In this document: positions 2-8,506 of the stretch, in pieces
How positions within the stretch are numbered: the first letter of the stretch is position 1
How the letters are laid out: each line of letters opens with the position of its first letter
From: Candidatus Omnitrophota bacterium
GTDB taxonomy: Bacteria; Omnitrophota; Gorgyraeia; Zapsychrales; Fredricksoniimonadaceae
Assembly: GCA_015233165.1 (NCBI GenBank)
Contig: JADFYF010000012.1
Span: 1 to 39,681, forward strand
Reading direction: 5' to 3'
Length of the DNA stretch: 39,681 bases
Translations under genes and position numbers: made by a program
The notes under the pieces: generated by a model
The model's input: the letters and a program-made list of their open reading frames with translations, nothing else
The model's database searches: none
Told to the model about the DNA's origin: nothing

Positions 2-1297
2 TCTGTTGCTGGTTTATCGCCAATGATGAATGCTCCCAAAACAATAAAGGTGACGCAAAGACATATCACAGGATTAGAACTTGTATCTCAGGGGAATAGA
101 TCGGAATCTTTTCAACACCCCTTAAGTCTTTCCGATGCGGCGATGTTGACGGGGGTGCTTAGTGGATTGAGACAGTGGATTACTGGGTGGTTAATAGCAT
201 TAAGATTAAGCCTCCCCAAGGTTGGGAACCTTGTGAATGAGAATCCGTATTTGGATTTGGAGTATTCGAAAGATGTTCCAGTTGCTGCGTTAAGGCTTAA
301 GGATCCTAAAATAGAATCAATTTTACGTTCTTACGATAAAATAATTAAATCTATGCAAGGAGTCCGAAGGGAGGAGTTAAATAGAATTAATTCGAAGGTT
401 CTTATGGAACGCATAGATCATATTGCCTCTCTTCAACGAGCTCCTGATGAAGAGTTTCTTGCAAGGATTAGAGAAATTCTTTCTTCTTTACCACAGCAAC
501 AATTAGATGGGCATGATCAGGCGATGTCGTCGATGTATAGTTATGTTAAACCTGCTTTATCGACGCTGACTATTCTAGCAGTGTTAGCTTTAGGAGGGGT
601 TAAGTTGTCTAGTTTAAGAAATGAAGAGGTTGGGTACCAACAACAGTTTCGATTGATCAAGGCAAGCAATCAATTGAGTGCATATGAAGAAGATGCTATT
701 AATGCGTTTATTAGAAAGCCGGCGAGTAAAACTATTAAAGAATTTCAATTTAACGATACTAATTTATCTGCTTATCGAAACCGACGAGATTCACAGGAGT
801 ATATCGCAAACTTTGAAGCCCTAGGAAATGCGTTAATTCGAGGAGAAAATGTCACTCAATTATTATCACTCTGGAGTGAGGGAGAGTTTAAAAATGCATC
901 TGACGCAATGGGTGGGGATAAGGCTTTTAGAGATGCTTTTTTAAGGGGTGGTGGAAAACCAACAGAGGATTCTCTTCGTAAAGCTATAGCAAGTTCTCCT
1001 GATACAGGATTGAGTGATTTTTTTAGATCGTTTTTACCATCCAATCAAGGTGTGAAGAGTCCAGTCAAATCGGATAAATCTTCAGAGCTCGGTGGTATCG
1101 ACTTTAATGCGGCTAATTTGAATCTGCAAATTAAGCGTGATGGCAAGGGTATTCCGCTTCCGATTTCTCAGCAGAATCTGGAGAATATCAAATTAGATGG
1201 GTTGACTCCTGTCATCCTGGATATCAAACCTGCCATGGAAGTGCCTCTGTTAGCTGAGCTGCGAGGTGGTTCTAAGGAGTCGTTGGCTAAGGTTTAG
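2..1297 (+). CDS. C-terminal part of a giant Omnitrophota-type secreted protein (5' end outside window)
   Basis: The reading frame is open to the left edge, so the Met codons near position 23 need not be the start; what is visible is the last ~430 residues. The tail carries a block with GIDFNAANLNLQIKRDGKG, PLPISQQ and DGLTPVILDIKPA, which I recognise as the recurring C-terminal module of very large secreted proteins in Omnitrophota genomes. One hydrophobic stretch (about nt 540-610, ALSTLTILAVLALGG) could span a membrane. The rest is charged and mostly helical-looking, with no enzymatic motif that I can name. The gene starting at 37610 appears to show the N-terminal half of the same family. 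Function unknown; family membership is from memory and moderately certain. Confidence 0.6.
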   Translation, partial: SVAGLSPMMNAPKTIKVTQRHITGLELVSQGNRSESFQHPLSLSDAAMLTGVLSGLRQWITGWLIALRLSLPKVGNLVNENPYLDLEYSKDVPVAALRLKDPKIESILRSYDKIIKSMQGVRREELNRINSKVLMERIDHIASLQRAPDEEFLARIREILSSLPQQQLDGHDQAMSSMYSYVKPALSTLTILAVLALGGVKLSSLRNEEVGYQQQFRLIKASNQLSAYEEDAINAFIRKPASKTIKEFQFNDTNLSAYRNRRDSQEYIANFEALGNALIRGENVTQLLSLWSEGEFKNASDAMGGDKAFRDAFLRGGGKPTEDSLRKAIASSPDTGLSDFFRSFLPSNQGVKSPVKSDKSSELGGIDFNAANLNLQIKRDGKGIPLPISQQNLENIKLDGLTPVILDIKPAMEVPLLAELRGGSKESLAKV

Positions 1298-6528: not shown

Positions 6529-7128
6529 ATGTATCCCAAATTAATAGAAAAACTGTTAGAACAATTATGCAAGCTCCCCGGTGTGGGACGCCGTAGCGCT
6601 GAGAGAATTGTTTTCTGGCTTTTAAGTAAAAGTACCGAGGAGGTCAGAGAATTAGCGAATGCCATGATTCTTCTTAAAGAAGGAATGCGTTTTTGCAAAT
6701 CCTGTAACAATTTAAGCGAGCAGGAATTATGTTTGGTCTGCGCCGATGCTAATCGTGACCGTAAGATGGTTTGCGTCGTGGAAAGCCCTAAGGATCTTTT
6801 GGCGATTGAACGAACAGGTAGCTATCGCGGTCTTTATTATGTGCTTCTGGGAAATATCTCTCCGTCGGAAGGACGCGGACCTGACGATTTAAATCTTCCT
6901 AAACTTTTAAGCCGTATCAAGGAGGAGGAGATTGCTGAAGTGGTGATCGCCACCGATCCTGACGCTGAAGGCGAGATGACGGCGCTGCATATTGGTAAGG
7001 TTTTAAAGGGAAGTCCGATCAAGGTGAGTCGTATTGGTCTAGGAATACCTATGGGATCCGCCGTTGAGTATGTGGATATTTCAACGCTAACGATGTCCCT
7101 AAATTCTCGCAGACCGGTTGACATCTAA
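6529..7128 (+). CDS. recR: Recombination protein RecR
   Basis: RecR acts with RecF and RecO to load RecA at gaps. The 199-residue protein is full length. It has an N-terminal helix-hairpin-helix (LCKLPGVGRRSAERI), a C4 zinc finger (C56, C59, C68, C71), a Toprim domain starting at VCVVESPKDLLAIERTG and the conserved GRGPDDL loop. In the Toprim domain the common RecR wording ATNPTVEGE is replaced by ATDPDAEGE, closer to topoisomerase-type Toprim motifs, with the acidic residues kept. It follows dnaX by 9 nt; the ATG has no clear Shine-Dalgarno sequence. Confidence 0.97.
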   Translation: MYPKLIEKLLEQLCKLPGVGRRSAERIVFWLLSKSTEEVRELANAMILLKEGMRFCKSCNNLSEQELCLVCADANRDRKMVCVVESPKDLLAIERTGSYRGLYYVLLGNISPSEGRGPDDLNLPKLLSRIKEEEIAEVVIATDPDAEGEMTALHIGKVLKGSPIKVSRIGLGIPMGSAVEYVDISTLTMSLNSRRPVDI

Positions 7129-7183
7129 AGTTTTTTAAGTATAATATCGAAATCAATTTTGAAGCAAGCTCTTAAATAATAGA

Positions 7184-7207
7184 TATTCTCCTGTAGCTCA
7201 GTTGGTA
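7184..7207 (+). repeat. Duplicated 5' part of tRNA-Asn (24 bp direct repeat, copy 1)
   Basis: These 24 bases are identical to 7472-7495, which contain the last 3 bases before the tRNA-Asn gene and its first 21 bases (acceptor strand and most of the D arm). After this copy the sequence departs into a G/C-rich palindrome (CCTGCCGGCAGG, 7212-7223), so this is only a tRNA fragment. With the real tRNA it brackets the GIY-YIG gene, like a target duplication. Confidence 0.9.
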
Positions 7208-7241
7208 CCTGCCTGCCGGCAGGGAGCGGCAAGCAACGGAT

Positions 7242-7484
7242 ATGTTTTATGTTTATGTTCTTCAAAGTATCAAAGATGATTCGCAGTATATAGGCTTGTC
7301 ACAAGACCCTGCTAAAAGATTGAAAGAACATAATCAAGGCGATTCAAAATATACAAAAGGTCATAGACCTTATAAGTTAATATATCAAGAATTTTGTGAA
7401 ACCAGACAGGAAGCACGCGTTAAAGAAAAGTTTTATAAGTCTGGTGTTGGTCGTGAAAAGTTGAAAAACATTATTCTCCTGTAG
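7242..7484 (+). CDS. GIY-YIG nuclease domain protein, C terminus encoded by the tRNA gene
   Basis: This 80-residue single-domain protein has the GIY-YIG pattern as FYVYVLQS followed by YIGLSQDPAKRLKEHN, then the basic and acidic residues of the fold (TKGHRPYKLIYQEF, EARVKEKFYK). Relatives are UvrC-type and homing-type endonucleases; small stand-alone copies are common next to tRNA genes. Its last residues (ILL) and its TAG stop codon are read from the first bases of tRNA-Asn, overlapping the tRNA by 10 nt. It is bracketed by a 24 bp direct repeat of the tRNA 5' end. There is no clear ribosome binding site upstream (the 5' flank is a palindrome). Nuclease activity is inferred from the fold. 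Confidence 0.85.
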   Translation: MFYVYVLQSIKDDSQYIGLSQDPAKRLKEHNQGDSKYTKGHRPYKLIYQEFCETRQEARVKEKFYKSGVGREKLKNIILL

Positions 7485-7550
7485 CTCAGTTGGTAGAGCG
7501 GCACGCTGTTAACGTGCATGTCCGAGGTTCGAGCCCTCGCGGGGGAGCCA
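7475..7550 (+). tRNA. tRNA-Asn (anticodon GTT)
   Basis: A full cloverleaf can be drawn by eye: acceptor TCTCCTG pairing with CGGGGGA, D arm GCTC/GAGC, anticodon stem GCACG/CGTGC with loop CTGTTAA (anticodon GTT at 7508-7510), variable loop ATGTC and T arm CGAGG/CCTCG with TTCGAGC. Discriminator G and an encoded CCA end the gene. A strong terminator follows 8 nt later. Confidence 0.97.
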
Positions 7551-7557
7551 ATATGAT

Positions 7558-7594
7558 GTCAGCCACAGTAGCAATGCTGTGGCTGACTTTTTTT
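7558..7594 (+). terminator. Rho-independent terminator of tRNA-Asn
   Basis: A perfect 11 bp stem (GTCAGCCACAG pairing with CTGTGGCTGAC) with an 8 nt loop is followed directly by seven T residues. Confidence 0.95.
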
Positions 7595-7925: not shown

Positions 7926-8163
7926 ATGACAAAAATTACTGTATCAAAATTAATTAGCTCTAGCGAATCAACGACCATTGAATGGAAACCGTCGCTGTCG
8001 CAAATTCACGAAATCATTGAGAGTATCACAGCTTTTGCTAATACTGAAGGCGGATGCTTGTTTGTTGGGGTGTCAAAGTACGGTGAGATTGGTGGTGTTC
8101 AAATTGGTAAAGGTACAGTTGAAGATTTGGTTAACCGTATCGCTCAACACACTGATCCAAGAA
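7926..8163 (+). pseudogene. AlbA_2 (Schlafen-type) domain protein, truncated by IS insertion
   Basis: The first 79 residues are a good AlbA_2 domain: ESTTIEWKPSLSQIHEIIES, ITAFANTEGGCLFVGVS and GTVEDLVNRIAQHTDPRI. Such domains form the N-terminal part of larger proteins that bind nucleic acid, sometimes as regulators or defence proteins. The frame runs into the left end of an IS3-type element at 8164 and stops inside it (last residues LTPPQ come from the IS). I could not find the missing part on the other side of the element at 8823, so the 3' part of the gene is lost. Confidence 0.75.
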
Positions 8164-8242
8164 TTCTGACCCCACCCCAATAATTAAAGCCATTTGCATG
8201 TAGAGTTTCCTGGGGTAAACTAACCCAACAAGGAGGCTTCAC

Positions 8243-8506
8243 ATGTCAAAACGATACACAGAAGAACAGATTATTGCCGTATTAAAAGAAGCTGAAGCAG
8301 GTGCTAAAACGGTAGATGTTTGCCGTAAGCATGGTATTTCAGATGCCACGTTTTACAAGTGGAAGGCTAAATATTCAGGACTTGAGACATCTGATTTAAG
8401 GAAGATGAAAGTTCTTGAAGAAGAAAATGCTAAACTCAAGCGAATTGTAGCCGACTTATCCTTGGACAATCGGGCTTTGAAGGATGTGCTCTCAAAAAAC
8501 TTCTAA
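8243..8506 (+). CDS. IS3 family transposase OrfA
   Basis: This 87-residue helix-turn-helix protein begins KRYTEEQIIAVLKEAEAGAK and continues with VCRKHGISDATFYKWKAKYSG and a leucine-zipper-like C terminus (LRKMKVLEEENAKLKRIVAD). It is the DNA-binding half of IS3 transposases. A strong AAGGAGG site lies upstream. The run of six A at 8494-8499 near its end is a plausible -1 slippage site into orfB. Intact by itself but without a working partner in this copy. Confidence 0.93.
   Translation: MSKRYTEEQIIAVLKEAEAGAKTVDVCRKHGISDATFYKWKAKYSGLETSDLRKMKVLEEENAKLKRIVADLSLDNRALKDVLSKNF

Follow-up and report, generated by a model that had tools for sequence, protein, structure and literature searches.

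SegB, a free-standing GIY-YIG homing endonuclease of phages T4 and T6, occurs at tRNA genes of many isotypes (PMC13096335, PMC2988022). It cuts within tRNA genes and, together with recombination, duplicates and amplifies tRNA segments (PMC13096335). The GIY-YIG domain is known, and so is the idea of homing directed at tRNA genes; what appears to be new here, in that we did not find it described, are chromosomal 80-residue units that restore the tRNA, partial tRNA copies that bear hairpins, and sister elements with inverted repeats. In the literature we searched, whose coverage leaves out most subscription papers, there was no description of chromosomal GIY-YIG units lodged at tRNA genes. Tyrosine integrase islands also insert at tRNA genes, and they leave the tRNA whole, with a partial tRNA copy at their far end. 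We know of no mobile context for the small GIY-YIG proteins of the UPF0213/YhbQ type.

The locus analyzed here lies in a stretch of 39,681 nucleotides, which we call the window. An earlier note on this DNA had proposed that a tiny element inserted at a tRNA and restored it, and this proposal is supported by empty sites and by recurrence of the arrangement at other tRNAs. To that picture we add a mirror layout, the finding that hairpins are usual in the partial tRNA copies, and a sister clade whose units are bounded by inverted repeats in place of tRNA.

Results

The window holds one tRNA gene, an intact tRNA-Asn(GTT) at 7475-7550 on the forward strand (ARAGORN; Rfam tRNA 62.3 bits, E 2.6e-11); of the 30 distinct tRNA sequences read for this genome, which has 44 tRNA hits in total, no other is a tRNA-Asn. 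Its conserved left neighbor, at 6529-7128 on the same strand, is a gene that we take to be recR from its family, and it served as the anchor for finding empty sites. Within the end of recR, at 7118-7145 (+), the sequence reads as a candidate sigma70-type promoter for the tRNA (TTGACA, 16 bp, TATAAT), and a TATAAT box stands at a comparable distance 5' of the tRNA in three relatives (L123, L127, L070). A candidate intrinsic terminator, GTCAGCCACAG...CTGTGGCTGAC followed by a T run, lies 3' of the tRNA at 7558-7594 (+). Farther downstream, in 7926-8506, an 85-aa ORF ending at 8183 is followed by an IS3-type ORF at 8243, possibly a gene split by insertion.

As the earlier note had claimed, the 5' end of the tRNA occurs twice as a perfect 24-bp repeat: 7184-7207 (+), corresponding to tRNA positions -3 to 21, is identical to 7472-7495 (+), which marks the boundary of a unit whose length, taken as the spacing of the two copies, is 288 bp. 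No longer repeat occurs in the 500 bp around it, where shuffled sequence gave a maximum of 12 (n=200). The note was right that the upstream copy is partial and that only the downstream tRNA is full, but the copy is longer than it supposed. The palindrome that it placed in the intervening space, CCTGCCTGCCGGCAGG at 7208-7223 (no strand), is real but interrupts the D-loop of the copy, as comparison of the two sequences makes plain; beyond it the tRNA sequence resumes with GAGCGGCA at 7224-7231 (+), equal to 7496-7503, so that tRNA positions 22-29 are included and the copy reaches the anticodon stem. The same palindrome is dispersed through the window's genome (17 forward and 14 reverse matches, against 0 for a reversed control pattern), with several copies, among the sites inspected, sitting in the loops of other hairpins, and it recurs in the tRNA-Leu copy of another unit of this genome (L003) and in L062, L063, L069 and L202. 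A scan for inverted repeats against shuffled sequence reported none for the window unit.

Between the two tRNA sequences lies a GIY-YIG endonuclease ORF of 80 aa plus stop at 7242-7484 (+; Pfam PF01541, 59.8 bits against a cut-off of 22.6, 3.2e-16). It ends in the 10 bases TCTCCTGTAG, which are also positions 1-10 of the tRNA, and its stop codon TAG is U8-A9-G10, bearing out the observation that the nuclease takes its stop and last residues from tRNA bases. The ORF and the tRNA should share the tRNA promoter at 7118-7145, because the partial copy occupies the place that the tRNA has in empty alleles; the mRNA might be processed at the tRNA 5' end.

The domain match places the protein in the GIY-YIG superfamily. 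In the family alignment Y5, Y16, G18, R26, H30, E62 and K66 are at least 99% conserved, and the catalytic Tyr, Arg and Glu are kept (Y5, Y16, R26 and E62 at 99-100%). Judging by dN/dS values of about 0.1, mostly 0.04-0.3 with synonymous sites often saturated, the protein is under strong purifying selection. Solely GIY-YIG-type domains match it, with no transposase of a known class, and it has no separate DNA-binding domain, unlike I-TevI. The closest solved structures by sequence are 1ywl and 1zg2 (E about 1e-7). Matches to PHROG homing endonucleases are weak (best E 0.0015); searches for homologues gave none in IMG/VR or plasmids and three weak hits in phages.

We searched for the protein in genome contigs (55 loci) and in 92 related genomes (79 with a match), which merged into 151 distinct homologue places. 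A same-strand tRNA lies within 250 bp in 67 of these and an opposite-strand tRNA in 1 of the 151, where by our own estimate, from the 44 tRNA hits in the 2.29 Mb of the window's genome, chance would give less than 1%; since the places are related by descent, we give no p-value. The adjoining isotypes include Asn, Leu, Ser, Glu, Asp, Val, Ala, Tyr, Cys, Gln, His, Lys, Met, Arg, Pro, Phe and Ile, and among the hosts are several lineages of Patescibacteria, Scalindua (Planctomycetota) and members of the Flavobacteriaceae (Bacteroidota). The assemblies behind the window and its close relatives are drafts. Flavobacterium sp. 11, apparently an isolate (one 3.76-Mb contig, not labelled a MAG), has 8 or more copies, some of them in tandem, and 11 matches turn up in a chromosome record of Roizmanbacteria; the pattern is therefore not an assembly artefact of the window. 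An Rfam search of 40 homologues lacking an adjacent ARAGORN tRNA found no other RNA target common to the vicinity of the ORF. For one homologue (L186) the neighbor is a tmRNA, encoded on the same strand about 200 bp upstream, which may be a further target.

The units adopt two layouts. In layout A, that of the window, a partial tRNA copy is followed by the ORF and then by the intact tRNA; layout B is its mirror, with intact tRNA, ORF and a partial 3' copy (L005, L047, L077, L058, L195, L199). The search that the earlier note had recommended, for similar genes running into a tRNA behind a tRNA copy, yielded 30 layout-A units whose upstream partial copy scores above 100 dinucleotide shuffles, and 22 layout-A cases in which the ORF stops in or just past the tRNA; in 6 of these cases the stop coincides with positions 8-10 or adjoins them. 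In two layout-B units (L005, L047) the ORF stop is a TAG inside the partial copy. The first contiguous tRNA match ends at positions 13-38 in most layout-A units and mostly begins at positions 17-57 in layout B. Many tRNA-adjacent units have no detectable partial copy.

Upstream folding energy separated the tRNA units poorly from controls (z < -2 in 45% vs 30%), so we counted hairpins by perfect stems. In 23/30 layout-A units the interval from the start of the partial copy to the ORF contains a perfect stem of 7 bp or more, versus 8/30 upstream controls of equal length, and 22 of the 23 stems have at least 5 G-C pairs. Reading by eye, the tRNA sequence resumes after the hairpin in many units (e.g. 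L003, L010, L033, L062); in L074, L087 and L088, and likewise in units of Flavobacterium sp. 11 and Algoriphagus, the hairpin replaces the anticodon arm. In Algoriphagus sp. A40, three GIY-YIG ORFs about 360 bp apart stand beside tRNA-Val (L290, L293, L296), with partial copies whose anticodon arm is replaced. The hairpins may be selected, or they may be palindromes that favor loops in a spare copy. Fragments of the tRNA-Asn 5' end that have hairpins and lack an ORF also lie 5' of the tRNA at L124, L136, L138, L141 and L142, as relics or as a separate repeat.

The recR/tRNA-Asn locus shows that the gene is optional. It is occupied in L001 (the window), L070, L062 and L075, and the empty sites that the earlier note had asked for exist in the same genus (L123) and at L120, L127 and L146; counted by genome, the junction is empty in G001, G006, G028 and G057 and occupied in G012, G018 and G047. 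At the same-genus empty site (G001) the junction consists of 67 bp and a single tRNA-Asn. These observations bear on the alternative that the note itself had named as refuting, a remnant of a tandem tRNA array; in the form weighed here, an unrelated nuclease gene fell into that array. Partial tRNA copies in direct orientation and extra copies without an ORF (L142, L136) would fit such a history, but empty sites with a single tRNA-Asn, unit boundaries at the tRNA and the recurrence of the layout at many isotypes and in many phyla make it highly improbable. We also think it very unlikely that the nuclease is a domesticated host gene that trims or protects the adjoining tRNA or tRNA gene and keeps its position for co-transcription. 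The strong purifying selection, the conserved catalytic residues and the likely co-transcription with the tRNA are what one would expect of a host function, whereas such a function would not lead one to expect that close relatives differ in having the gene at one locus, that the unrelated isotypes are so many, that some copies are broken (L073, L075) or that units occur in tandem in several copies.

Three relatives carry diverged GIY-YIG genes at recR/tRNA-Asn. In protein trees built from 78 columns, in which few forks are well supported, the window protein groups with a Flavobacteriaceae protein encoded next to tRNA-Arg (L005; SH-aLRT 89), apart from L070 and L075 at its own locus; the units that it groups with lie in other phyla, at tRNA-Arg, tRNA-Val and tRNA-Gln. 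Because the window protein groups with these units and not with L070 or L075, the tree suggests that the GIY-YIG genes at recR/tRNA-Asn arrived separately. Elsewhere, units at tRNA-Ser(TGA) (L205) and tRNA-Ser(GCT) (L229) are the same element, 84% identical over -13..318, and in the pair L074/L185 (86%) homology is confined to the stretch from the partial copy through the tRNA end. Isotype labels change 35 times on the tree versus a minimum of 45 in 200 shuffles, which means that the tRNA clade tracks isotype. From comparison of these loci, the mobility of the tRNA-lodged unit is well supported.

The same junction is used by another kind of element. All 11 of the 11 relatives tested have RF00028 group I introns in tRNA-Asn at the recR junction (L121, L124, L125, L126, L128, L136, L138, L141, L143, L144, L147), and several of the introns hold what looks by eye like an HNH-like ORF. 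This one tRNA-Asn gene, with both RF00028 introns and GIY-YIG units, is therefore a hotspot for homing systems of two unrelated kinds. At L070 (L122), a GIY-YIG ORF unit lies 5' of a tRNA-Asn that itself holds a group I intron.

Among homologues without a tRNA, 37/81 have inverted repeats around the ORF that score above all 100 shuffles. These units are mostly 270-320 bp long, often with the ends ATCCCGTTAGAGAT...ATCTCTAACGGGAT, and copies with unrelated flanks are dispersed within single genomes (L014/L020 94%, L044/L059 92%, L184/L191 92.5%). L184 and L191 lie between ATGA repeats where the stop of one gene would overlap the start of the next, and relatives (L254, L255) have an uninterrupted ATGA overlap at an M50 protease/aroB junction; no empty site was found for L184, its neighbor being kept in none of the relatives compared. 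L009 combines both end types, with inverted repeats inside the duplicated start of a tRNA-Pro. Two Algoriphagus species also share the position of an inverted-repeat unit (L017, L037), which lies apparently within a gene, which we take to resemble that for the 23S rRNA intervening-sequence protein.

All of these features except the shared Algoriphagus site speak for a reading in which the tRNA-lodged units are the tRNA-associated branch of a family of miniature transposons. The GIY-YIG protein would then be a transposase or nickase that acts on the element ends, and tRNA-derived sequence would take the place of inverted repeats. There is, however, no strand-transfer enzyme, and a GIY-YIG nuclease would be expected to give breaks only; the terminal duplications vary in length, and tRNA-clade units mostly lack inverted repeats (present in 7/45 upstream units). 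We consider this reading rather unlikely. Somewhat less doubtful, though still tentative, is the idea that all members of the family together form a separate class of autonomous miniature mobile elements of about 270-320 bp. An ~80-residue GIY-YIG nuclease would be their sole protein, their ends would be either inverted repeats or host tRNA sequence, and their two types of target, both sparing the host, would be ATGA stop/start overlaps and rebuilt tRNA genes.

Discussion

The reading that we prefer, and hold with moderate confidence, is that the window unit is a minimal, free-standing, tRNA-targeting element of homing type. DNA cleavage, the cut site, the route of repair and what the hairpin does are inferred, with SegB as a precedent by analogy. 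The 80-aa GIY-YIG enzyme would cut an empty tRNA gene mid-way, at about tRNA positions 13-38 to judge by the observed joints, and an occupied copy would then serve to mend it by break-induced copying. With the partial copy and the intact tRNA, which flank the ORF, acting as two homology arms, the ORF would be copied in and one full tRNA would always be rebuilt. After insertion the ORF would borrow the tRNA promoter and often the tRNA stop codon, while the hairpin would most likely disable the partial copy as a cutting target or pseudo-tRNA. It counts against this homing reading that the intact tRNA keeps the supposed cut sequence, and the reading does not explain how self-cutting is avoided. 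The absence of a DNA-binding domain apart from the nuclease, the many units beside a tRNA in which no partial copy is detected, the few forks resolved by the trees and the draft state of the assemblies also weigh against it. We considered protection of the target through loss of flanking sequence as a general role of the layout and set it aside, as the tRNA flanks of L195 also look unchanged for about 90 bp.

The layout looks like that of a large, little-described family of tiny self-spreading genes. If that is true, few known self-spreading genes would be smaller than these, which would lie hidden next to tRNA genes in the window's own lineage, Patescibacteria groups, Bacteroidota and Planctomycetota. 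They would illustrate how a tRNA can serve a selfish gene at once as its target, repair arm, promoter and stop signal, and would account for one kind of partial tRNA copy that muddles annotation. An 80-residue enzyme with isotype specificity would also be informative about how a nuclease of that size locates its site.

How does the window unit compare with systems already described? Like UPF0213/YhbQ-type proteins, whose structures 1ywl and 1zg2 are its closest, the window protein has a single domain. With tyrosine integrase islands the unit shares its place at a tRNA, the whole tRNA left behind and the partial copy at the far end, but it has no integrase, measures 288 bp and carries a partial copy interrupted by a hairpin, which in the family is often the 5' part. 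Like group I introns in tRNA anticodon loops, it would be selfish and of homing type, and it sits at the same tRNA-Asn gene; unlike them, its ORF lies outside an intact tRNA and it has no ribozyme, Rfam returning only the tRNA in the window. With SegB the family shares the GIY-YIG fold, a free-standing gene and a place at many tRNA isotypes. SegB belongs to phages, whereas the window family is chromosomal and its protein has 80 aa, with a layout of its own: one unit per tRNA, a hairpin-bearing partial copy and an ORF that ends on a tRNA stop codon. If our reading is correct, tRNA targeting of the SegB type extends from phages to bacterial chromosomes.
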